Below are positions 13,558-38,309 of a stretch of 64,000 nucleotides of DNA, in pieces (the first letter of the stretch is position 1; the number at the start of each line of letters is the position of its first letter). A model generated the notes under the pieces. That model was not told the DNA's origin and ran no database searches. It worked only from the letters and a program-made list of their open reading frames with translations. The position numbers were made by a program, and so were the translations under genes. The stretch comes from Actinomycetes bacterium (GTDB lineage: Bacteria; Actinomycetota; Acidimicrobiia; Acidimicrobiales; Ilumatobacteraceae). The DNA lies in contig JANYCT010000051.1 in the NCBI GenBank assembly GCA_025360105.1, forward strand, positions 186,001 through 250,000, read 5' to 3'.

Positions 13558-13611
13558 TTGAACGACGCCTGACGTGAGTTCTTGTCCGGTGGATGACAGA
13601 CTGTCGCCCGC

Positions 13612-21877: not shown

Positions 21878-21976
21878 TCCGCCTCTGGCGGACAGCGACA
21901 GTGAGTTTCCTCTCGATAGTGGTGCTGTCGGCACCGGTTGGCAGGTGACGACGAACTCCTGTCTGGGCTGCTCGGC

Positions 21977-21993
21977 TACGCTTCGAGACACCA
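21977..21993 (+). promoter_or_regulatory. -10 box upstream of the 27-codon leader ORF
   Basis: TACGCT (21977-21982) lies 10 nt before the ATG at 21993, so the transcript probably begins at or near that ATG, which opens a short ORF instead of the main gene. Confidence 0.4.
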
Positions 21994-22076
21994 TGAGCGA
22001 GTGTCCCGAGCAACTTTCCCGTCGCGGTGGCCGACGTATCGACACAGTGCAGCGCCGCCCCACACGTACCCGCTAA
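21993..22076 (+). CDS. 27-codon leader ORF overlapping the O-antigen ligase start
   Basis: ATG 21993 opens a 27-residue Arg-rich peptide (MSECPEQLSRRGG..., eight Arg in all) that ends with TAA at 22074-22076. The last A of that stop is the first base of the next ATG (TAATG), so a ribosome finishing the leader is placed on the ligase start, which has no visible Shine-Dalgarno site. This makes translational coupling the likely role. The peptide itself resembles nothing I know. It is too short to judge coding bias, so the call rests on the overlap and the -10 box. Confidence 0.45.
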   Translation: MSECPEQLSRRGGRRIDTVQRRPTRTR

Positions 22077-23308
22077 TGCCTCACGATCCGCACACACTGT
22101 TGTTGTTGGCCGCAGGCCCACTTGTGTTGATCGAGTTGATGGTCGTGATACGAAAATTTCCGATTGTCGGGGCATGGGTCTTTATGACTGTTGCGGTGCT
22201 CGCCACCTTCTCGGTGGCTCCAGTATTGGCGTTGTTCGGCTTCAATGTCTTCCCAATCGACATCGTCTCTGCCGCGCTCGGCGGTGTGTGCGTGCTGCGT
22301 CTGCTCGAGCGACACCGGGCGGCCCGATCGCTGTGGGTTGTGCTCGGGCTGCTGGCTCTTGCTGCCCTACGCGGCGTGGGTTCGTTCGGCACACAGGGTG
22401 CGGTGAACGCTTCGCGAGGATTGCTGTACGTCTTCGTTGCGATTCTGTTCACCCAAGTGTGCCTCGGGGCGCAGGCTTGGCCGAAGCTGCAGCGGCTCTG
22501 GATGGTGACCGCTGGATTCCTCGTGGTGGCCGCCTTGGTGTACTTCGCCCGGTACGGGCTCAACACATATTCCGGTTCGGGTCAGCGCGCGCTCGACGCA
22601 AGCCAGGCCCTGATCGTTGCGCAGGCCGGGCTGTTGGCGATTGCTTTGCCCGGCCGCCGACAACGCGCGTTCGCGCTGCTGTGCTTTGTCGTGGTCCTCG
22701 CGAGTCAGCAGCGCACCGTCTGGGCCGCGACGTTGATGGCTGCGCTCGTGTTGGCCGTCGGGCACCGTAGCATCGATGGGCGGCGAGTATCGCGTACTGT
22801 TCGCCGAGGCCTTGTGGCATCGTTCGCTGCCGTTGTTCTGCTGCTCGTGCTCGGCCCGACGCAGCTGCAACAGAGCGTCTCGACCGCCACCTCCACGGTG
22901 TCGACCGATAGCAGCAGCAGTACGTTCGGTTGGCGTTTACAGGGATGGATCGATCTGCTTCGGCAGTATCAGACGAAGTCGATTGTCGATCAGGCGGTGG
23001 GTCAGCCGGCCGGAACCGGCTTCGTTCGAACCGTTGGCCGCGGCGTCGTGACCGCATCGCCGCACAACATGTATGTCACTGTGTTGCTGTCGCTCGGAGC
23101 CCTTGGGCTGGGGGCGTTCGTGGTGCTGCTTGCGACTGGCCTCCGCCGCTCGCAACGAGGCGGCATCGCGTTACGAGCGTTGGTGGCGGGATTGGTGGTG
23201 TTCGGGATCGGGTATCAATTTGCACCCGAACAGGGCTTGGTCGTTGGCGCCGCGCTCGCGCTCACCGTTCCGGCGCGACGAGCCGCAAAGGAACTGCAGT
23301 TCGCATGA
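22076..23308 (+). CDS. O-antigen ligase/polymerase-like membrane protein
   Basis: 410 residues with ten to twelve hydrophobic segments and one large loop between about 265 and 325. That loop holds FGWRLQGWIDLL and then SPHNMYV, matching the Wzy_C family pattern of an Arg followed later by an HN(x)Y motif before a membrane helix. Such proteins join or polymerise lipid-linked glycans outside the membrane. The gene begins in a TAATG overlap with the leader ORF and ends in an ATGA overlap with the next gene. It is the first full gene of the polysaccharide locus. Polymerase and ligase cannot be told apart by sequence. Confidence 0.8.
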   Translation: MPHDPHTLLLLAAGPLVLIELMVVIRKFPIVGAWVFMTVAVLATFSVAPVLALFGFNVFPIDIVSAALGGVCVLRLLERHRAARSLWVVLGLLALAALRGVGSFGTQGAVNASRGLLYVFVAILFTQVCLGAQAWPKLQRLWMVTAGFLVVAALVYFARYGLNTYSGSGQRALDASQALIVAQAGLLAIALPGRRQRAFALLCFVVVLASQQRTVWAATLMAALVLAVGHRSIDGRRVSRTVRRGLVASFAAVVLLLVLGPTQLQQSVSTATSTVSTDSSSSTFGWRLQGWIDLLRQYQTKSIVDQAVGQPAGTGFVRTVGRGVVTASPHNMYVTVLLSLGALGLGAFVVLLATGLRRSQRGGIALRALVAGLVVFGIGYQFAPEQGLVVGAALALTVPARRAAKELQFA

Positions 23309-25323
23309 CGGTTGACCTTGCGGTCTTGCTCACCTGCTTCAACCGACGAGAAACCACACTGCGATGCCTGGCGGGAGTTCACGCCCAGCGTGGCCTCGAC
23401 GACGTGACCCTCAGCGTGATTGTCGTCGATGATGGCGGTGACGACGGCACGTCGGCAGCGATCGCCCGCGAGTTCCCCGAGGTCATCGTGGTGCAGGGTG
23501 ACGGATCGCTGTATTGGACGGGTGGCATGCGTCGCGCTGACGAAGTGGGGTCGCGCACGCGGCCCGACTTCTTGCTCTGGCTGAACGACGACGTCGACCT
23601 AAAGCCCGACGCAGTCCGTGAACTCCTCGACGCAGCCGACGCGACCATGAGGCGGTCCCTGATCGTCGGCACGGTCCGCGACCCCGACACGGGTCGAGCG
23701 TCGTACGGGGGCTATCTGCAGACCGACAAACGCCGACCGCTGCGAATGCTGCGCGTCGAACCGAATGGCTCGTTGCAACCTGTGCACACAATGAACGGAA
23801 ATGTAGTGCTTGTGCCGCGCGAGGTTCGGGTCGCGGTCGGCCCGCTCGATGCTGGGTTGCCGCACAACATGGCCGACATGGAGTACGCGTTTCGCGCCCG
23901 CCGAGCGGGCTGGGAAGTCAACGTATCGCCCAGCTTCGTCGGGAGCTGTGCGGCGAATCGCGACAAGGCGCGTTGGGTAGACCCAGCGTTTCCGTTGCGT
24001 GAGCGTGTTCGCGCGCTTACCTCCCCCAAAGGTCTGCCGCCTCGTGCGTGGTTGCAGTTCACTCGCCGCCATTGCGGCTGGCGCTGGCCGCGGTACTTTG
24101 CGGGGCCATACGTGCGCAGCATCGTGTGCCGTATCGCCCCGACAGGCGATCTCGGCGGTCGCAGTGGCGCGACTGGCGAGGTGCGCGTCGTCCATGTGCT
24201 CAACGAGTTGAAGCGATCTGGCGCCGAGGTGATGCTGCTCAACGCAGCAAATGATTTCCGCAATGCAGGGGTCCGATCCAGTGTGATGTCGCTCGGCGGA
24301 GCCAGCGAGGATGCGGTTGTCGACCTGTTCACCCGGGCCGGCTATCCGGTGGTGCAGGCCGGCCAGCGACCGAGTTTGTTGAGATTTCTACGTTCGTACC
24401 ATCGGGAACTGCGGCTGTTGCATCCCCAGTGTGTGCATGTTCACCCCGAACGACGCTCGCTGCTCACCTGCCTCATGCCTCGGCTGATGGGCATGGACGT
24501 GGTCCGCACGATCCACAACAACTTCGGCTTCGAGGGTGTACTTTGGGCGAGAAAGACGCTTGAGCGACAAATCCTGCGCGTTGCCCGAGTGCAGACGGTG
24601 GCTGTGTCGCCGTCGGTGCAGGCGAACGAGCGCAACCGATTCCGGAATCCGACCACGCTTGTCTTCAACTGGTACGACGATGGTCGATTTGTTCCGCCGA
24701 GCGCAGCGATGAAGCAGTCGGCGCGCGAAGCGTTCGCCATACCGGCCAACCGTCGTGTCGTCGCTGTCATCGGCAATTGTTCCCACGTCAAGAACCACGG
24801 GTTGCTCCTCGACGCGATGGCGTTGATCCCCGCCGCACATCGACCGATCCTTCTGCATGTCGGCAACGGCGACACCTGTGTGGACGAGCGCCAGCAGTGC
24901 GAGGACATTGGGATCTCGGACGATGTGATGTTTCTCGGTTCGCTCGATGACGTCCTGCCTGTGCTGCTCGCGGCGGATCAGTTCGTGATGCCATCGTTGT
25001 ACGAAGGGATGAGCATCGCCGCGCTCGAGGCCCTCGCAAGTGGGCTGCCATTGCGTGTCGCTCCGGTGGCCGGGCTGCTCGACCTGGTTGCGCTGTTTGA
25101 TACGGTCCAGGCGGTTGCGCTGGATCCAAAAAGTTGGGCAGTGTCGCTGGAAGCAGTGACACAGACCCCGGAGCTTGCCGGGCCCAGCGGCGACCAGACC
25201 GAACGAACGCGGCAACTGTTCGGTATCGCTCGTGGCGTCGACCAATATGTGCGCCTGTATCGGCAATCGGCGCACCGAACGCGGGCGCGTCGAGACTCAG
25301 CTATGGGCACGGTGTTCCGGTGA
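23305..25323 (+). CDS. GT2-GT4 two-domain glycosyltransferase
   Basis: 672 residues with two catalytic domains. Residues 1 to about 275 are a GT2 enzyme: LLTCFNRRETTLRCL, VVDDGGDDGT, WLNDDVDL as the metal-binding acidic motif, and a GWEVNV region. It resembles rhamnosyltransferase-like GT2 proteins. Residues about 291-672 are a GT4/GT-B enzyme: VHVLNELKRSGAEVMLLNAA, VFNWYDDGRF, IGNCSHVKNHGLLLDA and the donor motif MPSLYEGMSIAALEALASG. The fused pair could add two successive sugars. The ATG 23305 overlaps the ligase stop (ATGA), which excludes the much longer open frame upstream. The following gene starts in its TGATG stop. Confidence 0.88.
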   Translation: MTVDLAVLLTCFNRRETTLRCLAGVHAQRGLDDVTLSVIVVDDGGDDGTSAAIAREFPEVIVVQGDGSLYWTGGMRRADEVGSRTRPDFLLWLNDDVDLKPDAVRELLDAADATMRRSLIVGTVRDPDTGRASYGGYLQTDKRRPLRMLRVEPNGSLQPVHTMNGNVVLVPREVRVAVGPLDAGLPHNMADMEYAFRARRAGWEVNVSPSFVGSCAANRDKARWVDPAFPLRERVRALTSPKGLPPRAWLQFTRRHCGWRWPRYFAGPYVRSIVCRIAPTGDLGGRSGATGEVRVVHVLNELKRSGAEVMLLNAANDFRNAGVRSSVMSLGGASEDAVVDLFTRAGYPVVQAGQRPSLLRFLRSYHRELRLLHPQCVHVHPERRSLLTCLMPRLMGMDVVRTIHNNFGFEGVLWARKTLERQILRVARVQTVAVSPSVQANERNRFRNPTTLVFNWYDDGRFVPPSAAMKQSAREAFAIPANRRVVAVIGNCSHVKNHGLLLDAMALIPAAHRPILLHVGNGDTCVDERQQCEDIGISDDVMFLGSLDDVLPVLLAADQFVMPSLYEGMSIAALEALASGLPLRVAPVAGLLDLVALFDTVQAVALDPKSWAVSLEAVTQTPELAGPSGDQTERTRQLFGIARGVDQYVRLYRQSAHRTRARRDSAMGTVFR

Positions 25324-26528
25324 TGATCCCGCGGTCACGCTGGCAGCTGACCCGGCTGGCTGATCGTGCACTGCGGATGCCCAGACATTTGGCGAGCGTG
25401 CACCGGGGTCCGCATCCTGCGGCGCCCGAGAACCGCCGCGCCGGACACCGGTTGCAATTGTTCAATCTCGACCTCCACATCGGTGTCATCAGCGATCTCA
25501 AGGATCTGTTCAACGATCTCGGTGTCGGGATCACCGACTGGACACTGTCTGGTCATGCCGATGTCATCGGTAGACACATCGAACCCGTGCGCGTCGTCAA
25601 TGAATTGACGTGGCGCTCAATGGGGCCGCAGATGGTCGATGAATTCGATCGTCGTTACGGCACGTTTCTCAGCGGGTTCGACGGCTTCGTCTGCACGCAC
25701 ACGCCGTCGTTCATTCCGTTGTTCATGCGCTACGGGAAGCCGATCATCGGGGTCGCTTCGACGCGCTACGAGCAGCCTTTCACTGCAGATCCCGAGCGTT
25801 GGCGTTGGCTCGACTCGCAGCTCAAGGCGGCGAGCGCGAGCGGACAACTCGCGCTCGTGGCCAACAACCGCGCAGATCGCGAGTATCTCCGTCGTTTCAC
25901 CGGGCTCGATGCCGAGTTGATCAGCAGCGTGTGTCGCTACCCGAACGCACCGTTCACCGGCCGCCGAGATGTCTTTGCCATTGCCTCGAAGTCGCCCGAG
26001 CTGGACCGTCTGATCGAGGTCGCCGCCGCCGGTGGGGCGCGTTCGCGCAAAGAACTCTTCCCGCTGCGGCCGACGTGGAAAGCGATGCACGACGTGCACG
26101 GCTGGGTGCACGTGCCCTACAACATCAGCCAGATGGCACTCTTCGAGCAGCACTACGCCGGGGTGCCGATCTTCATTCCCGACGATCGGTTCCTCGTTGA
26201 ACTCCGCGGCCGTTACCCGCAAGCGGTGTTGAGCCAGCTCTCGTTCAGGCAGGTCGCAGAACTCGACCCCTCAGTTGTGGCGTGGGATGACCCAAACAAG
26301 GTTGACAATCCGGAGGTGCTTCATTGGTGGCTGGATCGTGCCGACTTCGCGGCCCATGGCGCGCTCACAGGTGTCATCCGCTTCGGTTCATTCAACGAGT
26401 TGGCCGATCTGCTCCGATCGTGTGACGTCGAGGCCATCGCCGAGACGTACCGTGCAACCAACCGAGCGCGCGAGAGAACCGCATTGGCTCAGTGGGAGTC
26501 GTTATTGGCGCGCCACTTCGACCTCTGA
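25323..26528 (+). CDS. Glycosyltransferase-like protein of the polysaccharide locus
   Basis: 401 residues, no membrane segments. I do not recognise a definite family. Features that resemble GT-B enzymes are an early strand-rich region (LQLFNLDLHIGVISDLKDLF), a central FDGFVCTHTPSFIPLFMRYGKPIIGV block, and a late YNISQMALFEQHYAGVPIFIP segment in the place of a nucleotide-sugar-binding helix. Membership of a sugar-transfer family is inferred from that pattern and from its place, coupled by TGATG to the GT2-GT4 gene. It could also be a modifying enzyme. A 7-bp hairpin follows at 26541. Confidence 0.6.
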   Translation: MIPRSRWQLTRLADRALRMPRHLASVHRGPHPAAPENRRAGHRLQLFNLDLHIGVISDLKDLFNDLGVGITDWTLSGHADVIGRHIEPVRVVNELTWRSMGPQMVDEFDRRYGTFLSGFDGFVCTHTPSFIPLFMRYGKPIIGVASTRYEQPFTADPERWRWLDSQLKAASASGQLALVANNRADREYLRRFTGLDAELISSVCRYPNAPFTGRRDVFAIASKSPELDRLIEVAAAGGARSRKELFPLRPTWKAMHDVHGWVHVPYNISQMALFEQHYAGVPIFIPDDRFLVELRGRYPQAVLSQLSFRQVAELDPSVVAWDDPNKVDNPEVLHWWLDRADFAAHGALTGVIRFGSFNELADLLRSCDVEAIAETYRATNRARERTALAQWESLLARHFDL

Positions 26529-26616: not shown

Positions 26617-26681
26617 TGGTTCGACCGGTTCACCTTCGTTGCTCGGCCCTACGGCTTTGCGCGGGGGTTGCCCCGGCGTGA
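26616..26681 (+). CDS. 21-codon leader ORF overlapping the ABC flippase start
   Basis: GTG 26616 opens a 21-codon ORF (MVRPVHLRC...) ending with TGA at 26679-26681. The flippase GTG at 26678 overlaps this stop as GTGA. Just before the overlap CGGGG-GTTG-CCCCG (26662-26675) could fold into a hairpin that would hide the flippase start unless a ribosome reads through it. Two Cys codons are present. The design mirrors the leader before the ligase gene. Confidence 0.45.
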   Translation: MVRPVHLRCSALRLCAGVAPA

Positions 26682-28489
26682 CCGCTTTGCCTCAATCGGA
26701 GCGCCTTGGCACCCCGACACCCAGACTGCACCGGATCTTTCCCTCGTTCGAACTGATCGATCGGTCGCACAGCAGGCGGTTCTTGGTCTCGCTGGTTTTT
26801 TCGGCATTGCTCGCGGTTCTGGAGTCGGTCTCGCTGGTTTTGTTGTACGCACTCGTCGACGCGGCGTCGACCAAGGGCATCCCCACCGGGCGAGTTGCCG
26901 ACATCGCCGGCTGGTTCAACCTCAACACACGACGATCACTACTGACCGCGATGGGGGTGACCCTGTGTGTGGTTTATATTTCCAAGACGACGTTCGGCCT
27001 TCTGCTCCGCAAGTGGACTATCAAGATCCTGTTGGAAGCCGATACCGCTGTCCAGACGAGGTTCTTTTCCGAGTACCTCAACGCACCGCTGTCGTTTCAT
27101 CTGGCGAACAACTCGGCCACATTCGTCCGCAACATCACACGCACGCTCTCGGACGCGGTCGGTAGCGGCCTCAGCACCGTGTCCCAGGTTGTCTCCGATG
27201 GGCTGGTGCTGATCGCGGTGTTCGCAACGGCGCTCTTGGTGGAGCCCGTTGGTGCTCTCGTGGCAGCGGCGTATTTCACTGCGCTTGGACTCGTCATCTA
27301 CAAGGTGATCCGCCGCCGCCACTTGGCAGCATCGAAGCAGTACATGCGCGGCGCCCAGGCAACCTTGGCCGCCACAAATCAGGCGTTCGGCGCGATTCGC
27401 GAGATTGCGGTTGCCGGAAAGGGCGATGCGTTTTCCCGCCTGCTCAGCGCCGGTCGCGCCGACATTGTGGAATCGCAGGCGACCACGATGTTCTTTGGTG
27501 AGCTGCCCCGCTTCGTGCTCGAACTCGGTGTCGTGCTGGCTGCGGCGCCGATCATCGTGATCGTGCAGTCGAACGACTCGAATAGTTCTGCGGCGGCGAT
27601 CGCGCTGTTTGCTGCCGTCGCGTTCCGAGCGATGCCAACTGTCTCGCGGCTGCTGTCGGGTTTTGCGAGCGCGGTCTACACCCGTGTCGCAGCCACCGCA
27701 ATGCTCGACGCCGAGCGTGAAGTGACCGCGGCAATCGAAGCTGACAGCGTCCCCACGCTGAACGACGACGGACCGCAGTTGCACTTCAACGACAGCATTG
27801 TGTTCGACAACGTTTCCTTTCGCTACGGTGGCCATATCGAGAACACGTTGGTGCTCGAGCACATCTCGCTCACGATTCACCGTGGCGAGTACATCGGTCT
27901 CATCGGGGAGTCGGGCTCGGGGAAGAGCACTCTGCTCGATTTGATGGTCGGGCTGCAGCGGCCGACGAGCGGCGTTGTGTCGGTCGACGGAGTCGATATC
28001 GCCCATGCCCGCGATGCCTGGCGCGACCTGATCGGTTACGTGCCGCAGCACGTATACATCCTCGACCGCAGCGTGCTCGAAAACGTCGCGTTCGGTGAAC
28101 TCGGCGCAGACGGCATAGATCGCGATCGCGTGTGGGAGGCACTGGAGGCCGCCCACCTCGGCGACGTGATCCGCTCTCTCCCCAACGGCATCGAGACGGC
28201 TCTGGGTGAACGCGGTACCCGTCTCTCGGGTGGGCAGCAGCAGCGAATCGGGATTGCCCGGGCGCTGTATCGCAGACCCAAACTGCTGATCCTCGACGAG
28301 GCGACATCCGCGCTCGACACTGCAACCGAGCGAGAGATTCTCTCCGCGATCGACCAGCTCTCAGGAAGCGTCGCCATCGTGGCGGTGACGCACCGCCTGG
28401 CCTCACTCGATCATTGCGACCGCATTCTCGGGATCAGCGCTGGTCGGCTGAGCGAACTCCACAGTCGTCGCATCGATCCAGCGCCGTAA
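26678..28489 (+). CDS. ABC transporter, fused permease and ATPase (glycan/lipid flippase type)
   Basis: About 603 residues. An N-terminal exporter membrane domain of six helices spans about 30-320. The nucleotide-binding domain follows with Walker A GESGSGKS at 410-417, the signature LSGGQQQR near 515, Walker B LLILDEAT near 537 and the switch His in VTHR near 570. Single-gene half transporters of this kind act as dimers; in glycan loci they flip lipid-linked saccharides (PglK-like), which fits the surroundings. GTG 26678 is supported by the GTGA overlap with the short ORF ahead. The last 56 nt overlap the converging A-T-TE gene. Confidence 0.9.
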   Translation: MTALPQSERLGTPTPRLHRIFPSFELIDRSHSRRFLVSLVFSALLAVLESVSLVLLYALVDAASTKGIPTGRVADIAGWFNLNTRRSLLTAMGVTLCVVYISKTTFGLLLRKWTIKILLEADTAVQTRFFSEYLNAPLSFHLANNSATFVRNITRTLSDAVGSGLSTVSQVVSDGLVLIAVFATALLVEPVGALVAAAYFTALGLVIYKVIRRRHLAASKQYMRGAQATLAATNQAFGAIREIAVAGKGDAFSRLLSAGRADIVESQATTMFFGELPRFVLELGVVLAAAPIIVIVQSNDSNSSAAAIALFAAVAFRAMPTVSRLLSGFASAVYTRVAATAMLDAEREVTAAIEADSVPTLNDDGPQLHFNDSIVFDNVSFRYGGHIENTLVLEHISLTIHRGEYIGLIGESGSGKSTLLDLMVGLQRPTSGVVSVDGVDIAHARDAWRDLIGYVPQHVYILDRSVLENVAFGELGADGIDRDRVWEALEAAHLGDVIRSLPNGIETALGERGTRLSGGQQQRIGIARALYRRPKLLILDEATSALDTATEREILSAIDQLSGSVAIVAVTHRLASLDHCDRILGISAGRLSELHSRRIDPAP

Positions 28490-31001
28490 CGTCGAGGATC
28501 GGTGCGAACTCCTTCACCAGCGACTGTACGTGTGGCGGCTCGAGCATCGTGTAGTGGGTGCCCTCGACGCGCACGATCTGCAGATGCGTCACGATGCGCG
28601 ACCAATGGGCTTCGTAGCGGCTGCCTTCGACCGCGAACATCGTGACCGCAAACTCGGCGGCGGTCGGTGAGTATTTCTCGACGCTTCGTTTTGCGATACG
28701 CCCAAAGGCGATGCGGCGCGCTGGGCTGGTTGATGGCTTGCCGGGCACGACCGTGCGGTAGTTGATCCTCACCTGCAGCGTGGCTTTGTCGAGCGCGGCG
28801 CGGGCGTTGGCCGCAATCGATCGCGACTTGATCTTCGATCGGTAGGTGTCGATTGTCGAAATGGGGACGTCGGGTGGTGCTTCTCTGCGGCCGCCGGCCA
28901 CGGGCGCATCGAGCAGTGCGACCTGCACGTGTCGACCCAGCTGCCGTAGCTGTTGGGCGATCTCGTACGCCACGACGCCACCAGCCGAGTAGCCGGCGAC
29001 CACGACTCGGCCGCTCGGTTGCAAGCGCTCGATTTCGGCCACGGCGCGTCGGGCCGCTGCTGGTACCGAGCGATCGGGGCGACCTGGGCGGTGCAATCCG
29101 TGCGACTCGATCACGACGATGGGCTGATCTAATCCGAAGGCCCGCGCAAGCGAACGGAACTCGAGTGCGTTGCCCCCTCGACCAGGAAGGCAGAACAACG
29201 GTTTAAGGGTGCCCGTTGCATTGAGTGTCGTGATCGTCGATGCTCGTTGCAAGGTCGTTGTGGCCAGCAGCGCAGCCAGTCGTGCGGCAGATGGGCACTC
29301 GACGATGGCACTGACGTCGAGCGCGTCCCATCCCGCATCGGAAAGCCGGGAGGCGAGTTCGACGGCCCCCAACGAATCGAGGCCAATGTCCCAGAACTCG
29401 TCGTCGGCGCCCACAGTGTCGAGTTCGAGCAGGTCGGCAACGTTGTCGACGACGAGTTGCTCGAGCGCGTCGCCCGGCGGACGCGGCGGCGTCGAACGCC
29501 ATGGTTGTGTTGGGCCGTTCTGTAGTGCGGTCCGATCGATCTTGGAGCGATCGTTCATGGGCAGCTCCGCGTGGCGAACCAGCAGCGCCGGTACCAGATG
29601 AGGAGGCAGCGAGTCGGCCAGACGCGAGCGCACCTGAGCAGGCGTGATATCGGTGTTGGCATCGAGGTCGAGATGGGCAACGAGTCGCGCCATGCCCGTC
29701 GAGGTGTTATGCGGGAGCACGATCACATTGCGGATGCCGTCGATCTGACGAAGCACGCGTTCGGGTTCGGCCGGTTCGACGAGCTTGCCATTGATCTTGA
29801 TGAGATCGTCGAGTCGACCGACGTGTCGAAACAATCCATCAGGGCCTTGCTCAGCAACGTCCCCGGAGCGCCACCATCGCGTGCCGTCGGGATCCACGCC
29901 GAAACGCTGCGCAGTCAGTGCTGGTTCGCCGAGGTATCCGGTTGCGACGACGCCGCGGATCACGATCTGGCGCGGAGCGTCGGGGGAATCGTGCACTGGC
30001 TCAAGGCGCACTCGGCCGGGACTACTTTCCGAGCCGAGTGGAACGCGTCCGGTGCCGATCGGATGGTCAGGCGGAATCTCATACGCAAGCACGGCCATCG
30101 CCGCCTCTGTCGCCGCGTAACCCCCGGAGATCAACGCTTCTTCGTTCAGCAACTCGCGCAGTAGGGCCACCTGCTGCCAGGCAAGCGGCTCGCCGAAAAG
30201 GTTCAAGCGTTTGACCCGTTCAAGCCGCCGACCTGATGGCCACCTCCCGAGCAAAGATGCGGCCAGCGATGTGACCATGCCGAGGCGGGAAACTTCCTCG
30301 CGATCGATTCGTTCGAGCAGCGTCTGCGGGTCCATGCCTGACGGGTCGATCAGCGTGACTGGCAGTCCGGCAGAGGGCGACAACGCGGAACTGAGGCCCG
30401 CGACAAAACTGAACGGCGAGAAGTGGAGCAATCGGCGCGCCCCGTCTTGCTTGGCGTGCAATGTGCGTTGTTCGTGAATGAAGGTGAGCATGTCCGAGCC
30501 ATACACGACGCCTTTGGCCCGCCCAGTGGATCCCGACGTGAAGACCACGGCGGCCTGTTCCCTCGTTGCGTTTGGTTGTGGGGGGACGGGATGTTCGATC
30601 TCGTGCAGCGCGTCGAGCCAACGCACGTCGGGCGGGAGCAGCCCAGCGAAGTGAGGTCGGGCCACGATGGCGAGAGTCGGGCCGCCGAGCCGCTCGAAGA
30701 GCTCGGCGATGACAGCGGGAGGGCTCGATGCGTCGAGCGTGGCGAATGCCAGACCTGCCCGAATCGCCGCCTGGATCGCAATCACGGACCGCACCCCGCG
30801 CCCACCCACAATGGGCAGCACCATTGTGGGCTGCCCGCCGCGATCGGCAAGGTGTTCGAGGATCAAGCGGGCGAGCGTGCCGACGCGGCCGTCGAACTCG
30901 GTGTAGGTAAGACTCAGCTCCTCGTCTGCCATGGCAATTCGCCCGGGGTCCGTGCGTGCCCAACGTTGGAGGCCCGTAGCGACGCAGCTTGGCTCGTTCA
31001 C
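28434..31001 (-). CDS. NRPS-like A-T-TE enzyme (adenylation, carrier, thioesterase)
   Basis: 855 residues without a condensation domain. Residues 1 to about 490 are an AMP-forming adenylation domain: FTSGSTGRAKG (A3), GGYAATE (A5), RSGDVAE (A7), VGRLDDLIKING (A8) and the Lys of A10 in NDRSKIDR. A carrier domain follows with the phosphopantetheine Ser543 in DIGLDSLG, then a thioesterase with nucleophile Ser672 in GYSAGG and a late His in GTHYTML. The A4 region reads HFSPFSFVAG, without the Asp that holds an alpha-amino group in amino-acid-activating domains, so an aryl, hydroxy, keto or fatty acid is a better guess. It is embedded in the polysaccharide locus and overlaps the next minus-strand GT2 gene by GTGA, so acylation of a glycan is one inferred role. 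Confidence 0.88.
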   Translation of the reverse strand: MNEPSCVATGLQRWARTDPGRIAMADEELSLTYTEFDGRVGTLARLILEHLADRGGQPTMVLPIVGGRGVRSVIAIQAAIRAGLAFATLDASSPPAVIAELFERLGGPTLAIVARPHFAGLLPPDVRWLDALHEIEHPVPPQPNATREQAAVVFTSGSTGRAKGVVYGSDMLTFIHEQRTLHAKQDGARRLLHFSPFSFVAGLSSALSPSAGLPVTLIDPSGMDPQTLLERIDREEVSRLGMVTSLAASLLGRWPSGRRLERVKRLNLFGEPLAWQQVALLRELLNEEALISGGYAATEAAMAVLAYEIPPDHPIGTGRVPLGSESSPGRVRLEPVHDSPDAPRQIVIRGVVATGYLGEPALTAQRFGVDPDGTRWWRSGDVAEQGPDGLFRHVGRLDDLIKINGKLVEPAEPERVLRQIDGIRNVIVLPHNTSTGMARLVAHLDLDANTDITPAQVRSRLADSLPPHLVPALLVRHAELPMNDRSKIDRTALQNGPTQPWRSTPPRPPGDALEQLVVDNVADLLELDTVGADDEFWDIGLDSLGAVELASRLSDAGWDALDVSAIVECPSAARLAALLATTTLQRASTITTLNATGTLKPLFCLPGRGGNALEFRSLARAFGLDQPIVVIESHGLHRPGRPDRSVPAAARRAVAEIERLQPSGRVVVAGYSAGGVVAYEIAQQLRQLGRHVQVALLDAPVAGGRREAPPDVPISTIDTYRSKIKSRSIAANARAALDKATLQVRINYRTVVPGKPSTSPARRIAFGRIAKRSVEKYSPTAAEFAVTMFAVEGSRYEAHWSRIVTHLQIVRVEGTHYTMLEPPHVQSLVKEFAPILDVTALDRCDDCGVRSADQR

Positions 31002-32038
31002 GTTGCATCTCTGTTCTGGGGGCGGCGCTCGGTCTCAGGCACCAAGGACTGCCACGGCTCGAGCCGAATTCCGTAGCGAGGCCCTCCGGGAAAGACGGAC
31101 CTGATCGAGTGCCACTGTTGCCGATACACGAGATCGAGGCTTTGGTAGCGAAGCCTCGACGAATAGTAGGTGCTCCGGCCGGCGAGACGTCCGCCGGGCG
31201 CATACGCCCGATCGAGCTTCTGCTCGATGTCCACTCGGTTGCGGAATTGGATGTGATGCAGGAGAAGCGATTGCTCTGGCTCGATCATCGTGCCCTCGCG
31301 TGATTGATGGCGGTGGTAGCCCGGTAATACGTGCACGGAGTCGGGTTCGCGAACTCGCACGAGTGAATGCTTCCAGTGACCCCACGGACAGCACGGATGG
31401 TTGCGCCACCGTGCCAACGGCTGGACGGCCACGGGATCGGTGCGGGGGACATAGTCGGTTTCACCGCTTGGGTAGTGGTCAAGCACACGGCAGCCAACGA
31501 CGTCGACGCGCGGGTCGAGCCGGCCGATGAAATCAACGATGGTGGTTCCGTCGGGACCGACAACGAACTCGTCGGCGTCGATGATCAGCCACCAGATCTC
31601 TGTGCCTGCGAGGCGAGTCTGCTCGTTGATCACATCGCGGAACCGGGCCATTTTTGCGGCGTCGTCGAACCAGCCTTCATTCCTGAAACGAATCACCTCG
31701 GCGCCAGCCGCTTCTGCTTCGCTGCAGGTGTCATCGTCGCTCTCGTCGTCGACCACGAAGACGCGCTGTGCCCCTTGCTCGAAAGCGTTTCGAATCGTGG
31801 CGTACACGATGTCTGCTTCGTTCCACGTGCCGAGCAAGGCATACAGCCGAGTGGCCTCCGTGGCGCCAGCAGAGGCGCTCGGTGCCGCCGGATCTGACAC
31901 GCGCTGCACCCATGCACGATTGTTGCGAAGGAACTCGCGTGACATCGGCTGGTTTCGTCCGCGTAGTCTCCACGGCACGCTGTGCACTCGGTTAGCAAAC
32001 TGGCGAACTGTTGGTTTCGTTATCAATCGCTTCGCCAT
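30998..32038 (-). CDS. GT2-like glycosyltransferase
   Basis: 346 residues. The catalytic part lies at about 60-290 and has the features of the Glyco_tranf_2_4 type: YALLGTWNEADIV, VFVVDDESDDDT, and WWLIIDADEFV carrying the metal-binding DAD. Downstream it has HWKHSLVRV and YHRHQSREG, typical of this class. It is cytosolic, with no membrane helix. ATG 32038 is used because GGTGA lies just upstream and the preceding gene ends 4 nt earlier; the frame extends further but without support. It shares a GTGA overlap with the A-T-TE gene, so both are translated together. Sugar donor and acceptor are unknown. Confidence 0.8.
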   Translation of the reverse strand: MAKRLITKPTVRQFANRVHSVPWRLRGRNQPMSREFLRNNRAWVQRVSDPAAPSASAGATEATRLYALLGTWNEADIVYATIRNAFEQGAQRVFVVDDESDDDTCSEAEAAGAEVIRFRNEGWFDDAAKMARFRDVINEQTRLAGTEIWWLIIDADEFVVGPDGTTIVDFIGRLDPRVDVVGCRVLDHYPSGETDYVPRTDPVAVQPLARWRNHPCCPWGHWKHSLVRVREPDSVHVLPGYHRHQSREGTMIEPEQSLLLHHIQFRNRVDIEQKLDRAYAPGGRLAGRSTYYSSRLRYQSLDLVYRQQWHSIRSVFPGGPRYGIRLEPWQSLVPETERRPQNRDAT

Positions 32039-32042
32039 TGGT

Positions 32043-33203
32043 TCACCACGCTCGCAGGGCCGTAGCGTTCTCGGCCTGCACATTGACACCGTCGTGGAAG
32101 AAATCGAGGGGCGGGCAGATGGCCTGACGCCCGGTGACTTTCGCTATGTGCACCTCGTTCATGATAGCCACGATGAGCCGCGTGCGATGGCTGTCCATAT
32201 GGCGTGCACGCACTGCTTCCGCGCCGTTGCGACCTATGGTTCGCGCGTGGTCAGGGTCTGTCAAGAGAGAGTCAATCGCGGCAATCGTCTCGTCGATATC
32301 GCGCGCCAACAGCCACTCCCTGCCAGCTTCGAGCAATGTGTCCACGCGTGGCACGGCGTGGTCGACGACAGGGGTGCCCGACAGTGCCTGGATCATCGGC
32401 CGATTCGATGTGTAGTAGTCGCATCGCGATCCGGGGTAGCCACCGAACACGACATGTGCTCGCTGGCAGGTGCTCACCTGATCATTGAACTCGATCGCTC
32501 CCTGCCGCGATGAGAGACCATCCCAACCATGGCCGAACAGACCGAATCGACGGCCGTACCGTGCAGTGAGCTGCTGCACCGCCTCGGCACGTCGACGTCC
32601 CGACCAGAAGAGATGATTGGCAGGGTTGTGGCCGCCTGGACGACTGCCGATGAAGACCACGTCGAACTCGGGGTCCGAGTTCTCGAACAGCGGATCGGCC
32701 AGGATGGGTGATTGGTGCCCGAAACGTTCGTCGCACGCAGAACTCGCCATCAGCGTGATGCGCCGCGCCCCGGCCCGTTGCAGCCGGCCGGCGAGATGTC
32801 CCATTGACGTGACAAATGTGATGTCAGAGCCTGAACCCGCGTGCGTGAGTGAGGCCGGTGGCCTCGCGAGAAAGGGCCCGAATGGGTCTCCGCAGCTGGT
32901 GGCGATGACGGGCTGTTGGGGGAGTAGCGCGACGCGTTGCAGAAATGGGCGAGGGTCGGCGATGCGGTGCCAATGAAAGAACTGACACAGTAACGCATTC
33001 GACCCAGTGTCGAGCATGTGGCGCGCCACCGTGTCGTAGAACTCGGCCCAGTCGTTGGGAGTCTGGAGACCCCGATACGGAAAGGGTCTGTAGCCCGACA
33101 GTGAGCCATCGGCCACGAGACGCTCGAAACCGCTGTGATAGCCGAGCTGGTCCTCGGCCGTTGCGCCCTGCATCAGCACGGTCAGATTCAACGTGCGTGC
33201 CAC
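32043..33203 (-). CDS. Glycosyltransferase of the CgeB/DUF3880-like GT-B type
   Basis: About 386 residues with no membrane helix. The C-terminal half has the pattern of GT-B proteins with a late donor domain: DVVFIGSRPGGHN, RYGRRFGLFGHGWDGL, AHVVFGGYPGSRCDYYTSNRPMIQALSGTPVV, then LEAGREWLLARDIDE and a TDPDHARTIGRNG tail. Loss of a canonical EGFG motif and the YxSNRxxE-like segment place it near CgeB-type enzymes. GTG 33203 is favoured because AGGGCGG lies 5 nt upstream and the conserved part begins at once. It is divergent from the fucosyltransferase gene. Confidence 0.72.
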   Translation of the reverse strand: MARTLNLTVLMQGATAEDQLGYHSGFERLVADGSLSGYRPFPYRGLQTPNDWAEFYDTVARHMLDTGSNALLCQFFHWHRIADPRPFLQRVALLPQQPVIATSCGDPFGPFLARPPASLTHAGSGSDITFVTSMGHLAGRLQRAGARRITLMASSACDERFGHQSPILADPLFENSDPEFDVVFIGSRPGGHNPANHLFWSGRRRAEAVQQLTARYGRRFGLFGHGWDGLSSRQGAIEFNDQVSTCQRAHVVFGGYPGSRCDYYTSNRPMIQALSGTPVVDHAVPRVDTLLEAGREWLLARDIDETIAAIDSLLTDPDHARTIGRNGAEAVRARHMDSHRTRLIVAIMNEVHIAKVTGRQAICPPLDFFHDGVNVQAENATALRAW

Positions 33204-33266
33204 GGTACCGCCCTGTTCTGGCCCACTAGTGTGATCAACGATTCCTCGACTTGATGGAGCTACGAA

Positions 33267-34082
33267 GTGCATAGCAGGGAGCGCCACGTCGTTGCCATCT
33301 TTGGTGGACTTGGCAATCAACTGTTCCAATATTGCTGGGCGCAGCATCTGACGGAGAGCAGCGGGTATCGCTCAGTTCTCGATACCAGTGGGCTTCGATC
33401 CGGTCCGCGGACCTTAGGTTTGCAGCATCTCGGACTCGATGTCACACGGCGTGAACTGCGGCCGATGCGCTACGTGCCCTTCGTAGGCGGACGTGTTGAC
33501 GTGGTGGCACGGGCAGTTCGCCAGGTGCTCGGCCCCACGAACATCGTTCGTGAGCGGGCGCCAGGTGCCGTCTACAACGTCATGCGGCCTTCGTGGTGGT
33601 ACGGCTACTGGCAGTCGCGAGACACGGTGTTGAGTGTGCTCGAAGGCCTGCGCGCCGTGGTCGCTGTGCCTGTGATGCAGTCCAATTCCATCGGAGTGCA
33701 TGTTCGGCGCGGCGACTATGTGCCGCTGGAACTGCACCTGAATGCTGCCTACTTCGAGCACGCAGTTCGTGAGATGGCCACTGCTCATCCGGGCGTCGCC
33801 AGTGTCGTGGTCTATTCGGACGACCCGATGTGGTGCCGCAAGAATCTGCATTTCGACCTGCCGACCACTATTGCGCACGCGGCGCATCCCGCCGACGACT
33901 TGATTGCGTTGGCCGCCAGCGAATACCTCGTGTTGTCGCGGGGAACCTTCGGATGGTGGGCGAGCCACCTCGTTGAGCGTGTACCCGCCACGGTCATCGT
34001 CCCCGACCCGTATCTGCCCGGTTCTCCAAACCAGCAACGGCGGCTTGCCGATCCATCGTGGTGGTCTCAGCCGGCGACCTGA
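33267..34082 (+). CDS. GT11-family fucosyltransferase (alpha-1,2 type)
   Basis: 271 residues, soluble. The three GT11 motifs are clear: GGLGNQLFQY at 13-22, VHVRRGDY near 149 and SRGTFGWWASHL near 226. GT11 enzymes of bacteria transfer fucose from GDP-fucose to galactose in an alpha-1,2 bond on surface glycans. The gene is the only plus-strand member between minus-strand glycosyltransferases, which suggests separate acquisition or control. GTG 33267 has GGAG 8 nt upstream. Its 3' end overlaps the converging GT4 gene by 16 nt. Confidence 0.88.
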   Translation: MHSRERHVVAIFGGLGNQLFQYCWAQHLTESSGYRSVLDTSGLRSGPRTLGLQHLGLDVTRRELRPMRYVPFVGGRVDVVARAVRQVLGPTNIVRERAPGAVYNVMRPSWWYGYWQSRDTVLSVLEGLRAVVAVPVMQSNSIGVHVRRGDYVPLELHLNAAYFEHAVREMATAHPGVASVVVYSDDPMWCRKNLHFDLPTTIAHAAHPADDLIALAASEYLVLSRGTFGWWASHLVERVPATVIVPDPYLPGSPNQQRRLADPSWWSQPAT

Positions 34083-35257
34083 CCCGTCGTCTGCAAGGCC
34101 GCGCGGTAGGCGCTCGCCATCGAGGCACAAATCGCGGGCCAGCCGAACTGCGACCTGATCAGGCGTGCAGCGTTGTCGCCCATCTCGATGAGCCGTTCGG
34201 CGCTCGTGCCTGAGATCACCAACAGTGCTTCGGCGATACTCTCCGGCGTATCGTCGCAACCGAACGCACAATCGGCGTCTTCGGTAAGAGAACGAAGATT
34301 CGTGCCCGTGGTTAAGAGCGCGGGCAGGCCCACCGCGAGTGCCTCGAGTACCGCAAAGGGCAGCCCCTCGCTTCGTGACGAATGGACGAATGCGCGGGCA
34401 CCACGAAAGGCGGTGTTCTTCGCATCGCCGGTCGCGCTTTGCTCAAATGAGACGTGGCCCTCGATGCCCAGCCGAATGGCCAAGGATCGCAGTGTTGCGA
34501 GTCCACCGTCGTGATCGGGGCCGACGAGCAACAGTGGCGGAAGGGACTTCGTTTTCGACATTGCGAGCGCATACCCCTCGAACAGAAGATCGAGGCCCTT
34601 GTATCGGACTGCGATTCGTCCGAGGAAGAGCAGGTAGCCGTTGGAATCGCCACCGTAGGACTGGCGAAAATCTGCCGGCGCGATTCCGTTCGGTGCTACG
34701 ACGCTGCTGCGCAATCGGCCGCGTGTGAGGTGTTGCAGATCGGCGAGTTCGCGTTCGCTCATGAGATGCACAAGACGGGCGTTGGTCACCAGGGAGCGTT
34801 CTATCGAGTACCACCACAGTGTCTTCAGGCGTCGTCTTCCACCGGCCATCACCTGAGGCGCGTACCCGCCGTGCGGGGTGAGCACATACGAAATCCGTTG
34901 GCGAGCGAAGGCCACGTTGAGCGGCCGGAACACTGAGTGAAGGTGGATGAGATCGACACGGTCGGCTTGGCTCCGAATCCATTGTCGGGTGCGTCGCGGA
35001 AGAGGAAACACTCGACCGTGCAGGCCTTTGCGGGCGGGCAAGGTCCACATGTCGATGCCGTCGACGGACGTGAGGTACGGGGTCTTCAGACCTCGCTCGA
35101 CGCGCCACAATTCGACGTCGATGTCGGACGGTGGCAGGAATGTAACGAGGCCTGCGATGGCCCGGTCGACGCCGTTTGCTCCGTTCGGTTGGTAGTCCCC
35201 GACGTGCGCCACACGGAGTCGTGAGCCCCCCGCAGGCTGCGTGTCCCGCGGACTCAC
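34067..35257 (-). CDS. GT4 glycosyltransferase
   Basis: 396 residues with two Rossmann-like halves. The N-terminal acceptor side has HVGDYQPNGANGVDRAIAGL and LIHLHSVFRPLN. The donor side has LLFLGRIAVRYKGLDLLFEGY near 215 and the nucleotide-sugar motif SEGLPFAVLEALAVGLP near 300. The EGLPFAVLEA form is canonical for retaining GT4 enzymes. It begins in the stop of the next upstream gene (GTGA overlap at 35254-35257), so it belongs to the minus-strand operon that begins at 39613. Confidence 0.88.
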   Translation of the reverse strand: MSPRDTQPAGGSRLRVAHVGDYQPNGANGVDRAIAGLVTFLPPSDIDVELWRVERGLKTPYLTSVDGIDMWTLPARKGLHGRVFPLPRRTRQWIRSQADRVDLIHLHSVFRPLNVAFARQRISYVLTPHGGYAPQVMAGGRRRLKTLWWYSIERSLVTNARLVHLMSERELADLQHLTRGRLRSSVVAPNGIAPADFRQSYGGDSNGYLLFLGRIAVRYKGLDLLFEGYALAMSKTKSLPPLLLVGPDHDGGLATLRSLAIRLGIEGHVSFEQSATGDAKNTAFRGARAFVHSSRSEGLPFAVLEALAVGLPALLTTGTNLRSLTEDADCAFGCDDTPESIAEALLVISGTSAERLIEMGDNAARLIRSQFGWPAICASMASAYRAALQTTGQVAG

Positions 35258-36513
35258 CGGCGGTGCCGTTCGATGGCACGTCGATAGCCGGCGACGAGTG
35301 TGGTGATCGCAGCGTCGCGCCGATGCGTTTCGGCAAACTGTCGAGCGGACGCGCTGGCCGCTCGGAATCGTTCGATGTCAGAACAGATCGAGACGGTTGC
35401 CGCAGCCATCCCTGCGCTCATCGTTTCGGGTGTATCGAGTTGCTCGAGATGGCCGGCTTCCATGGGTACGTAGTCGTGAACACCTTGATGGTCGATCGCC
35501 ACGATCGGGAGACCTGTGCTTGCGGCCTCGAGGAGCTGCGCCCCCGTGGTGTCACGAATGCTCGTGAACAGCATGATGTCGGCCGAGTCGTACAGCGACG
35601 GCAGCGACTCCCAGGGCACCCTGCCATGAAAGACCACGCGGTTGTCGATCCCCCGTGCTGCAGCGTGCTGTTGCGCTCTCTCCAACTCGGAGCCATCGCC
35701 GACGACGTGCAGCACGTACTCCGGTGGCAGCTTGGCCGCGATATCCATGGCGAGGAGCACTCCCTTTCTTGGCAGGAGTCGCGCCACCCAGATGACGCTG
35801 ATGGTGTCGCTACCGAGCCGCACGGTTGAGTAGCGGTCGGGCACGGCGCGAGCCAGCCATGCGTGTGGCGTTGTCTCGGGCATCATCAGTGAAGATGCCC
35901 CACCGAGACGATGGATGAGGTGGGCGGTATCGGAGTTTGCGGCGAGCACGACGGCTGAGCGCCGCACGACCGAACGCGCCCACGGATTGAGTCGGAGTGA
36001 TCGCCCGGCCACGGCGCGAAGCCGTTCCATCCAACGGTCGCGCGGGCGATACAGCCCCATCATCTCGCGGGGGCTGGTGGAGCCGCCGCCCACAGGGCCG
36101 AAGACGAACGGCAAACCGAGCGCTGTCAGTGGGCTTCCCCAGAAGAGCGAGCCCCAGGAATAGTGATGCACGACGTCGAATCGATTCGGTGATCCGGCGA
36201 GGAGTTCTTGGGCGGTTCTGACCGACTGACGCTGCCAGTATCGGTAGCCCGCGTACACGCCTACATGTCCGCGTGCGAGCAAGCGCGGGGCAGGTGCGTG
36301 GGCGTGCTCGATCATGAGGTTGGCGCGTAGCTCGGCGGGAACCTGCTGTTCGTCGGTGTATCGGGTGCTCGTGAGCACCGTCACTTGGTGCCCGGCGCGT
36401 GCCAACCCTTCGGCCAGCCGCCACGAGTTGCCTGGTTCGCTGCCGCGCGCCGACGACAACGCGTACGCGCTGAGCAGAATCCTCAGCGGTCGATCATCAC
36501 CGTTCTCCGACAC
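35254..36513 (-). CDS. GT4 glycosyltransferase
   Basis: 419 residues. Motifs are SARGSEPGNSWRLAEGLARAGHQVTVLTS at the N-terminal glycine-rich loop, FGPVGGGSTSP near 140, IWVARLLPRKGVLLAMD near 230 and DTTGAQLLEAASTGLPIV near 320 as the donor-binding E-x7-E region. The fold is GT-B. It starts only a few nt after the acetyltransferase gene ends and overlaps the following GT4 gene by 4 nt. Several bacterial proteins with the EPGNSWRL loop act on rhamnose or glucose donors, but that is not enough for a substrate call. Confidence 0.87.
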   Translation of the reverse strand: MSENGDDRPLRILLSAYALSSARGSEPGNSWRLAEGLARAGHQVTVLTSTRYTDEQQVPAELRANLMIEHAHAPAPRLLARGHVGVYAGYRYWQRQSVRTAQELLAGSPNRFDVVHHYSWGSLFWGSPLTALGLPFVFGPVGGGSTSPREMMGLYRPRDRWMERLRAVAGRSLRLNPWARSVVRRSAVVLAANSDTAHLIHRLGGASSLMMPETTPHAWLARAVPDRYSTVRLGSDTISVIWVARLLPRKGVLLAMDIAAKLPPEYVLHVVGDGSELERAQQHAAARGIDNRVVFHGRVPWESLPSLYDSADIMLFTSIRDTTGAQLLEAASTGLPIVAIDHQGVHDYVPMEAGHLEQLDTPETMSAGMAAATVSICSDIERFRAASASARQFAETHRRDAAITTLVAGYRRAIERHRR

Positions 36514-36516
36514 GGT

Positions 36517-37098
36517 TCAAAACTCTGCCGAACTCGGCCCTGACGGCTTCGCTCTGAGCATCTGCTCGTGGCGCTCGATGTCGGCGGCATCGAAGCGTGT
36601 TCCAACCACACGCGCTGGGCAACCGGCAACGACTGCGTATGTGGGCACGGCTGCGGCGACCACGGCGCCAGCGCTCACCACAGCACCACGTCCGATCGAC
36701 ACCCCCGACAGCACGATGGCCCCGTATCCAATCCAGCAGTCCTCGCCGATGGTGACCGAGTGCTCGGGCAGATCTGACCGAGTGTCGGCGTCGCCGATCC
36801 ATGGGGCATGGCGCATCAAGCTGCCGACGTGGCGGTGATCATGATCGTGGCGTCCGACAATGCCAACATCATTGGCAATCAGCGTGCCGCGGCCGACAGA
36901 ACCATTGACCTCGATGGTGCATCGCTTGCCGATGTACACATCGTCATCGATCGACAAACGGTCGGGCGCCCACAACGTGGATCCAACACCGATATGAACG
37001 CGTCGGCCCACGTGCACGTTGTCCCGCACCGAGTAGAACCTGACGATGGTTTGACTGATGGTTCGTGCCGTGCGCATTGGAATCGATTGCAGTTTCAT
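36517..37098 (-). CDS. Left-handed beta-helix acetyltransferase (hexapeptide family)
   Basis: 193 residues. Hexapeptide turns run from about residue 30 (VHVGRRVHIGVGSTLWAP, IDDDVYIGKRCTIEV) to the end (VTIGEDCWIGYGAIVLSGVSIGRGAVVSAGAVV, then VPTYAVVAGCPARVVG). A loop inserted near residue 85 carries HDHDHRHVGS; a His there acts as the base in WbbJ/NodL-type enzymes. It likely O-acetylates a sugar of the glycan using acetyl-CoA. ATG 37098 overlaps the stop of the preceding GT4 gene (ATGA), so the long open frame further upstream is not the real start. Confidence 0.87.
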   Translation of the reverse strand: MKLQSIPMRTARTISQTIVRFYSVRDNVHVGRRVHIGVGSTLWAPDRLSIDDDVYIGKRCTIEVNGSVGRGTLIANDVGIVGRHDHDHRHVGSLMRHAPWIGDADTRSDLPEHSVTIGEDCWIGYGAIVLSGVSIGRGAVVSAGAVVAAAVPTYAVVAGCPARVVGTRFDAADIERHEQMLRAKPSGPSSAEF

Positions 37099-38309
37099 TG
37101 GGCGAGTGCCTTCTGAACGCCCACGCTGAACCGTTCGACCATTTCCTCGACCGTATACCGCGTCGCCGCCTTGCGACATCCTGCGCAGAGTCGGTCGAGA
37201 AGTTGCTGATTCGTCATCGTGGCCACGACGGCGCTCGCGTACGCTCGCTCCGACGCAGCTTCCGGGACGATGACCCCGTTGCGACCGTCCTCGAGATACT
37301 CGATTTCGGGGCTGTGGTTTGTCACCGCGCTCGTGATCATCGGTAGTTCGAGCGCGAACGAGTCGAGCACCGCGAGACCCACCAGACCGGGCATGAGCAT
37401 GACAGTGGCCACCGAACAGAGCCTGGCCAACTCGTCGTTTCGTCTGACCCCCAGCATGTGAAGCCACGGGCGCGTGGCAGCTGCGGTCTCGACGGTGGTG
37501 CGGTGAGGGCCATCGCCGATGATCAGCAACTCAAAGTCAGGCAGCTGCAGTCTCACGATGTCGGCAGCATCGATCAGAAAGCCAAGTCGTTTGCCCGCGT
37601 ACAGGCTGCCCACATAGACCGCGACGTGTGGCGATCTGATCCCCAGTTCGGTACGGGTCTTCTCCATCGCGGCCGCGTCTACGGCTAGGTGGGCCTGGGC
37701 CAGGGCCGCCGTGTCGATTGCGTTCTGTACGATCGTGATGTGATTGGATGCGAATCCGGCCGCGGACACAAGGGCTGCCGTGCCTTCCGTGTACGCGAAC
37801 CACCAGTCGCACGAACGAATCGTGCGTCGTTTCCACCATTCACCGATGCGCGAGGCCGTTGAGTCGTCGCGATTGATGCCGTGGCCCCACAGCGCGAACT
37901 TGGGGCCGCCGAGTCTGCGCCATGTGGCGAGAACGGGATTCACGAGCAGCCGGCTTGCCTGCTCGACGATTACGAGATCCGAGCGATGTATCGATCTCAG
38001 CATCGGCTGCCAGACGAGTGTCCGATTGCCGGCTCGGAGTGAGTGGTTGGAGATCGACTCTGCCCATGGGATGGTCGCTGTGTCGTAACGCGATGCGGAC
38101 TCGGTATCGGGTTCACCTACGATGAGACGGAACCGGATGCCTTCTGCCGTGAGTCGGGAGCGGACGCCTTCGAAGAACGCAACGCGATAGTGGGGAAGCG
38201 TCTTGTAGACCACCACGACCTCTCGGGTGCGCGATGGGTCTTGACGTTCCGTTCGTCTCACGTCACGACGTCGGCGAGACGTGTCGGCCTCGATCTCAGA
38301 TTCACCCAC
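37095..38309 (-). CDS. GT4 glycosyltransferase
   Basis: 404 residues, GT-B fold. The N-terminal part has VVVVYKTLPHYRVAFFEGVR, a phrase typical of a GT4 subgroup acting on lipid-linked saccharides. Further on are FALWGHGINRD, VYVGSLYAGKRLGFLIDAADIV near 225 and MPGLVGLAVLDSFALELP near 310 in place of the donor EGxxxxxxE motif; the usual first Glu is replaced here by Gly in PGLVGLAV. The first 30 residues are polar and may not be translated. It overlaps the priming-transferase gene by 52 nt and the acetyltransferase gene by 4 nt. Confidence 0.83.
   Translation of the reverse strand: MGESEIEADTSRRRRDVRRTERQDPSRTREVVVVYKTLPHYRVAFFEGVRSRLTAEGIRFRLIVGEPDTESASRYDTATIPWAESISNHSLRAGNRTLVWQPMLRSIHRSDLVIVEQASRLLVNPVLATWRRLGGPKFALWGHGINRDDSTASRIGEWWKRRTIRSCDWWFAYTEGTAALVSAAGFASNHITIVQNAIDTAALAQAHLAVDAAAMEKTRTELGIRSPHVAVYVGSLYAGKRLGFLIDAADIVRLQLPDFELLIIGDGPHRTTVETAAATRPWLHMLGVRRNDELARLCSVATVMLMPGLVGLAVLDSFALELPMITSAVTNHSPEIEYLEDGRNGVIVPEAASERAYASAVVATMTNQQLLDRLCAGCRKAATRYTVEEMVERFSVGVQKALAQ

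Follow-up and report, generated by a model that had tools for sequence, protein, structure and literature searches.

The explanation that we tentatively prefer for the A-T-TE gene in the window (the whole stretch of DNA that was analysed, 64,000 nucleotides) is that an acyl-loading synthetase has been recruited into an exopolysaccharide (EPS) operon, where it may acylate a sugar or a lipid-linked glycan intermediate. Judged by sequence comparison, the protein, with its adenylation (A), carrier (T) and thioesterase (TE) domains, belongs to a distinct, patchy clade of stand-alone A-T-TE synthetases.

On gene content, the surrounding locus is an exopolysaccharide locus (Table 1), and gene content together with packing places the A-T-TE gene in a glycan operon. 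Three minus-strand genes are packed closely here, the A-T-TE gene coming third after a PF13524 glycosyltransferase gene and a GT2 gene, and the TGA stop of the GT2 gene and the GTG start of the A-T-TE gene share positions 30998-31001, which confirmed the 4-base GTGA overlap that had been read from the sequence. When the GT2 partner was sought at 1e-30 in 200 genomes of the taxonomic family, it was found only in the window's own genome, and when the DNA of 28000-34100 was sought in 9 genomes of the genus, the matches outside its own place were limited to segments of the A-T-TE gene and a few short pieces of the ABC transporter gene. The best NCBIfam rows of the ABC transporter were PglK, HepA and MsbA, all of them below their cut-offs. 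The ABC transporter gene and the A-T-TE gene are convergent and overlap tail-to-tail by 56 bases. PGT and WecG are fused in the window, whereas they are two separate genes in L076.

Table 1. Positions of the genes, domains and codons discussed, in the window and beside A-T-TE genes at other loci
Feature	Locus	Position	Strand	Basis or remark
Wzy_C protein	window	21938-23308	+	
GT2-GT4 fusion	window	22930-25323	+	
Protein without family match	window	25134-26528	+	
ABC transporter	window	26639-28489	+	
A-T-TE gene	window	28434-31001	-	855 aa, GTG start
Thioesterase domain, residues 601-831	window	28509-29201	-	Pfam Thioesterase 6.9e-19, TE fold
Carrier domain, residues 516-579	window	29265-29456	-	Pfam PP-binding 7.8e-9
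Carrier Ser543 codon	window	29373-29375	-	within GLDSLGA
Adenylation domain, about residues 11-495	window	29517-30971	-	Pfam AMP-binding and alignment of solved A domains
Lys487 codon	window	29541-29543	-	A10 catalytic lysine (GrsA K517), kept
Ala297 codon, place of A5 Pro (YGPTE)	window	30111-30113	-	motif alignment
Val200 codon, place of A4 Asp (GrsA D235)	window	30402-30404	-	LgrA HMMER and family alignments
GT2 (PF13704)	window	30998-32089	-	likely true start an ATG near 32038
Glycosyltransferase (PF13524)	window	32043-33347	-	opens the three-gene run from 33347 to 28434
GT11-like glycosyltransferase	window	33267-34082	+	opposite strand, splits the minus-strand run
GT4	window	34067-35257	-	
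GT4	window	35254-36513	-	
Hexapeptide transferase, open frame	window	36517-37467	-	match in last third of frame
GT4	window	37095-38309	-	
Fused PGT-WecG	window	38258-39613	-	Pfam
ABC importer genes beside A-T-TE	L071	6810-8770		
ABC importer genes beside A-T-TE	L175	1175-3120		
ABC importer genes beside A-T-TE	L081	1304-3472		
ABC importer genes beside A-T-TE	L171	8665-11434		

Pfam matches and motifs confirmed the A, carrier (Ser543) and TE (Ser672) domains claimed by the sequence-only reading in a single chain, and no condensation (C) domain was found by Pfam in that chain. The AMP-binding match (4e-29) covers residues 11-320, and solved A domains could be aligned up to about residue 494. 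Ser672 sits in a GYSAGG motif. In a 16-row family alignment Ser543, Ser672 and His816 are invariant and Asp698 is nearly so (Glu in L076); Ser672, Asp698 and His816 are the likely TE triad. When the predicted structure of the full-length protein (mean pLDDT 83.9) was compared by Foldseek, the NRPS termination modules EntF and AB3403 headed the rows.

The A4 Asp that binds the alpha-amino group in amino-acid-activating domains had been noted as missing, and this was borne out, with Val200 in its place also in a HMMER alignment to LgrA. Across the family, window included, the A4 Asp was present in 0/19 members and the A5 Pro in 0/19, where L001 is the window and was counted once and the duplicates L002 and L057-L070 were left out. 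In the other adenylating domains of the loci collected, used as controls (88 in all), Asp was present in 66 of the 77 readable rows and Pro in 60 of 79, these rows including other adenylating enzymes and not all being independent (L003 and L004 overlap). Several of the control rows lacking Asp or Pro resemble acyl-CoA ligases, as judged from motifs read by eye. Because both residues are missing in 19/19 members, the activated acid is probably one without an alpha-amino group, in agreement with what had been proposed from the letters. An A5 motif without Pro is usual in acyl-CoA ligases too, and therefore the loss of this Pro does not fix the exact class of acid. We take Met415 of StsA to be at the A5 Pro position. 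In the available text of PMC11253843, small or hydrophobic residues are described as replacing the alpha-amino Asp in A domains for keto or hydroxy acids, and Met as standing, in one keto acid A domain, in place of the Pro conserved among amino acid domains. The same text describes McyG, with a Val-bearing A domain, as Phe-activating; therefore, loss of the Asp is strong, though not absolute, evidence.

In the ten-residue code of the A domain, the window protein has Val200 at position 1 and Asn267 at position 5. The numbering of this code is our own assignment, which we take from motif anchors and GrsA numbering. According to the part of PMC10316625 that was available, Val at code position 1 indicates an alpha-keto acid enzyme, 4-hydroxyphenylpyruvate being associated with Asn at position 5. 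This agreement is suggestive for the window protein, and was rejected as proof of keto-acid specificity because both positions vary among close relatives. The match may be due to chance, since the code differs even between the window protein and its two closest homologues.

A scan of genome contigs resulted in 52 loci, and further loci came from genome searches. Full-length members of the family reach at least about 340 bits, and individual domains from other NRPS proteins at most about 215 bits; NRPS hits outside the family were excluded on their score and, in a few cases, on their position in the tree. The 19 family rows of a 24-row tree split from L010, L021, L025, L171a and L173 with a support of 100/100. 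The 16-row alignment and the first tree were made without the partial L081, and L171 and L175 came later. The closest homologues are L005 (52%) and L006 (51%); the paralogue in the window's own genome, L071, stands at 39%. All members come from the window's order or from a public assembly matching the genus mate G341 (the frames and scores of L005 and L006 are identical to those of L062 and L066), except L007 (42%), which is on a contig labelled Akkermansia. Tandem A-T-TE copies are found in L078 and L079.

The family gene is rare and patchy. With the profile at 1e-120, matches were found in 10/397 genomes of the order, two of which (G002 and G018) carry genes outside the family; the profile search gave A-T-TE matches in 6/221 genomes of the window's taxonomic family, and a single-protein search at 1e-70 found 3/396 genomes of the phylum, every one from the window's order. 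The gene of G018 (L174) was rejected as a family member on its condensation domain and A4 Asp, and the first A-T-TE gene of G886 (L171a) on its A4 Asp. Also rejected was the A-T-TE gene of G002 (L173, 8632-11235), which encodes Thr at A4. In the tree its long branch lies outside the family, and it may represent a further lineage of A-T-TE enzymes for non-amino acids. Among the literature matches listed, none dealt with this A-T-TE family or with A-T-TE enzymes in glycan loci.

Association with glycan genes recurs in the family but is not the rule, because most homologues are outside glycan loci and the EPS copies are scattered over the tree. Three or more glycan markers were found in 3 of the 17 family loci (the window, L072 and L076), a count in which the window and L072 are favoured, as both contributed seeds to the models of the markers, and in which GT2 genes are undercounted, as the GT2 model found only two frames. 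The other 14 loci comprise 13 without markers and L171 with two, and the short length of L005, L007, L074, L077, L079, L080, L081 and L175 gives these loci a lower chance of showing glycan genes. The closest homologues, L005 and L006, and the paralogue L071 had no glycan markers. The background, with at least three markers in 1/60 stretches and one marker in 8/60, consisted of 20 kb stretches from 6 related genomes, with A-T-TE loci excluded, which are not random draws because they were taken at chosen steps on large contigs. The enrichment of 3/17 versus 1/60 had a Fisher p of 0.032, with the window itself selected for its glycan context; without the window, it was 2/16 versus 1/60 with a p of 0.11. 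The marker models (GT4, GT2, PGT, WecG and Wzz) were made here, with proteins from the window and L072 that Pfam had confirmed as seeds; the PGT, WecG and Wzz models took in proteins of distant loci as well, chosen by similarity or reading. The sequence-only reading had named homologues regularly outside glycan loci, beside natural-product genes, as counting against a glycan role, and this is partly what is found (14/17 loci below three markers), alongside L072 and L076 in EPS loci.

L072, an order relative at 40%, is an EPS locus with Wzz, Rhamno_transf, GT4s, GT2, Wzy_C and an ABC transporter by Pfam, and a GT4 frame overlaps or directly follows its A-T-TE stop. L076, a relative from the taxonomic family at 35%, is an EPS locus by PGT, WecG, Wzy_C and epimerase (Pfam) and GT4 (local model). 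L171, where two GT4 genes and also a sulfotransferase gene lie 1-6 kb past the family gene, is borderline. The EPS copies are on separate branches of the tree, where the four rows labelled as such, L025 among them, require four changes, and no partner gene common to them was seen in the locus contexts. CoA-transferase genes are present in the context of L073 and L074, and a flavin monooxygenase gene adjoins L077. At L005:10261-11202 there is a frame that looks GT-like by eye and is without a Pfam match.

NRPS-type genes were also observed in glycan surroundings outside the family. In two Calothrix genomes, L023 (9245-16162) and L054 (9905-12495), NRPS-type genes with a TE lie among Wzz, GT4, WecG and PGT genes; the L023 gene has a long N-terminal extension, the L054 gene is split in two, and both carry the A4 Asp, unlike the window's family. 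In the acidobacterial L025 (8418-21030), an A-T-TE gene with the A4 Asp has its start on the final base of a PGT gene. This is an EPS-type locus with Wzz and GT4, to which reading by eye adds a sulfotransferase and a P450, and a second A-T gene lies further on.

In a sister subclade of the window's group, a different neighbour was found. Four of its 6 members (L071, L175, L081 and L171b) adjoin genes for an NMT1/THI5-related binding lipoprotein and a permease, identified by Pfam for L071, L175 and L171b and by similarity alone for L081. L171, where alone the ATPase was examined, has the importer ATPase gene too, with the genes on one strand in overlapping frames. Of the remaining members, L077 runs into the end of its contig, and in L007 another gene lies upstream. 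At 1e-8, the binding protein had no match in the other loci examined, background stretches included. At 1e-25 it was found in 4/221 genomes of the taxonomic family (G000, G341, G312 and G343), all among the six A-T-TE carriers, a co-occurrence with a hypergeometric p of 1.6e-7 that ignores kinship (two pairs of genus mates). In G312, the binding-protein gene begins at a contig end, and its A-T-TE gene likewise. At L171, two different A-T-TE genes (5959-8586 and 11419-14010) flank one ABC importer; the first carries the A4 Asp, and the second belongs to the window's family. The importer linkage suggests that a small, diffusible acid or product is involved in this subclade, and makes a glycan role weaker as the ancestral one.

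The main alternative, possible but somewhat improbable, is that the enzyme alone makes a free small molecule, its TE joining two acyl units or releasing one, and that the gene is a mobile one which stands at the glycan site by accident. The importer-tied subclade would fit such a product, as would the patchy distribution, the absence of a fixed partner, the tandem copies and the self-sufficient architecture. The A-T-TE layout is also that of the alpha-keto-acid quinone synthetases described in the available part of PMC10316625, and Val200 and Asn267 follow the rule given there. Against this, besides the possibly fortuitous code match, the likeness to RalA and EchA is by description, not by sequence, and a free product accounts neither for the GTGA coupling nor for the presence of the gene at three separate EPS sites.

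It is improbable that an alpha-amino acid is loaded and a glycan or lipid aminoacylated, in a fused version of Dlt/Alm logic. By sequence and fold, the closest matches of the A domain are NRPS domains that activate amino acids, with DltA among the rows, and McyG shows that a Val-bearing domain can be described as Phe-activating; however, the A4 Asp and A5 Pro are lost throughout the family, the protein scores 123.7 bits against the DltA equivalog with its NCBIfam cut-off of 559.85, and a single chain with a TE takes the place of a separate carrier and transferase. That the enzyme acts in trans, on or with a different enzyme or carrier of the cell (for example the NRPS of contig C75), the TE only proof-reading or supplying an acid, is very improbable: one of the genome's two ACPS-family hits is on C75 alongside several NRPS-type matches, but no other NRPS gene was found among the Pfam-scanned genes surrounding the A-T-TE gene, T and TE are complete in one chain, and the relatives are at varied sites.

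For acylation of a glycan, the reading preferred here, the TE is the domain that would carry out the transfer. All of the first eight Foldseek rows for this domain were the Pks13 TE; by VIA-align NocB came first (Z 27.2), with the EntF TE (3tej, 24.8) tying with Pks13 (24.6), and by sequence an NRPS TE (7crn, 3e-11) was ahead of Pks13 (7e-8). The Pks13 TE ligates its chain to trehalose, according to the available text of PMC9900942. The TE fold was rejected as proof of sugar transfer because many TEs match equally well.

From the intact catalytic residues, we infer that the A domain would use ATP to adenylate a carboxylic acid that lacks an alpha-amino group (a keto, a hydroxy or a plain acyl acid, a substrate class deduced from the lost Asp and Pro), that the acyl unit would be loaded as a thioester onto the phosphopantetheine of Ser543 (the two ACPS-family hits of the genome fit this step), and that the TE would take it as an ester on Ser672. 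The TE could then pass it to a nucleophile, here most likely a hydroxyl or amine group on a sugar in the cytosol or on a lipid-linked glycan intermediate; this acceptor is a guess, favoured because of the glycosyltransferase coupling, the repeated occurrence in EPS loci and the Pks13 TE as a precedent. The earlier proposal of acyl transfer to a sugar therefore stands as chemically reasonable and GT2-coupled, and is weakened by the many relatives outside glycan loci and by the importer-tied subclade. We consider it unlikely that the whole is a new one-chain family whose TE is a sugar acyltransferase, repeatedly recruited to EPS loci, with a sister group dedicated to an importer-served small molecule. 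If a glycan is acylated, one chain would perform the activation, carriage and transfer to a sugar for which Dlt and Alm use several proteins; if a small molecule is made, a group of environmental bacteria would own a stand-alone synthetase family with a linked importer.

Dlt and Alm consist of separate proteins with amino acid substrates, and Dlt and the exosortase-associated ligase TIGR03098 are adenylating enzymes of cell-surface polymers. The window protein is like DltA, AlmE and TIGR03098 if it serves a surface polymer as an adenylation enzyme, but it is far below the cut-offs of both DltA and TIGR03098 (110 bits against 592.35 for the latter). AlmE is listed as serving LPS modification in the available part of PMC11253843. 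Adenylating enzymes do serve surface polymers, and the earlier view that A-T-TE enzymes are not an expected component of glycan loci has to be corrected in this respect.

The terminal NRPS modules of C-A-T-TE type (EntF, SrfA-C and AB3403) share the A, T and TE folds with the window protein, which differs from them in having no C domain, A4 Asp or A5 Pro and in falling in a clade separate from the modules compared. Pks13 shares the TE fold and has acyl transfer to a sugar as its described reaction, whereas identity is only about 20%, its TE is part of a PKS, and other TEs match equally. The quinone and furanone synthetases are similar in design: the fungal atromentin and polyporic acid enzymes and RalA and EchA, the bacterial counterparts according to the available text of PMC10316625, which knows A-T-TE enzymes without a C domain from fungi. 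They have the same domain order and a similar length, have lost the alpha-amino Asp and have Val at code position 1; unlike them, the window copy is in a glycan operon and its family has a varying code, in a comparison made by description.
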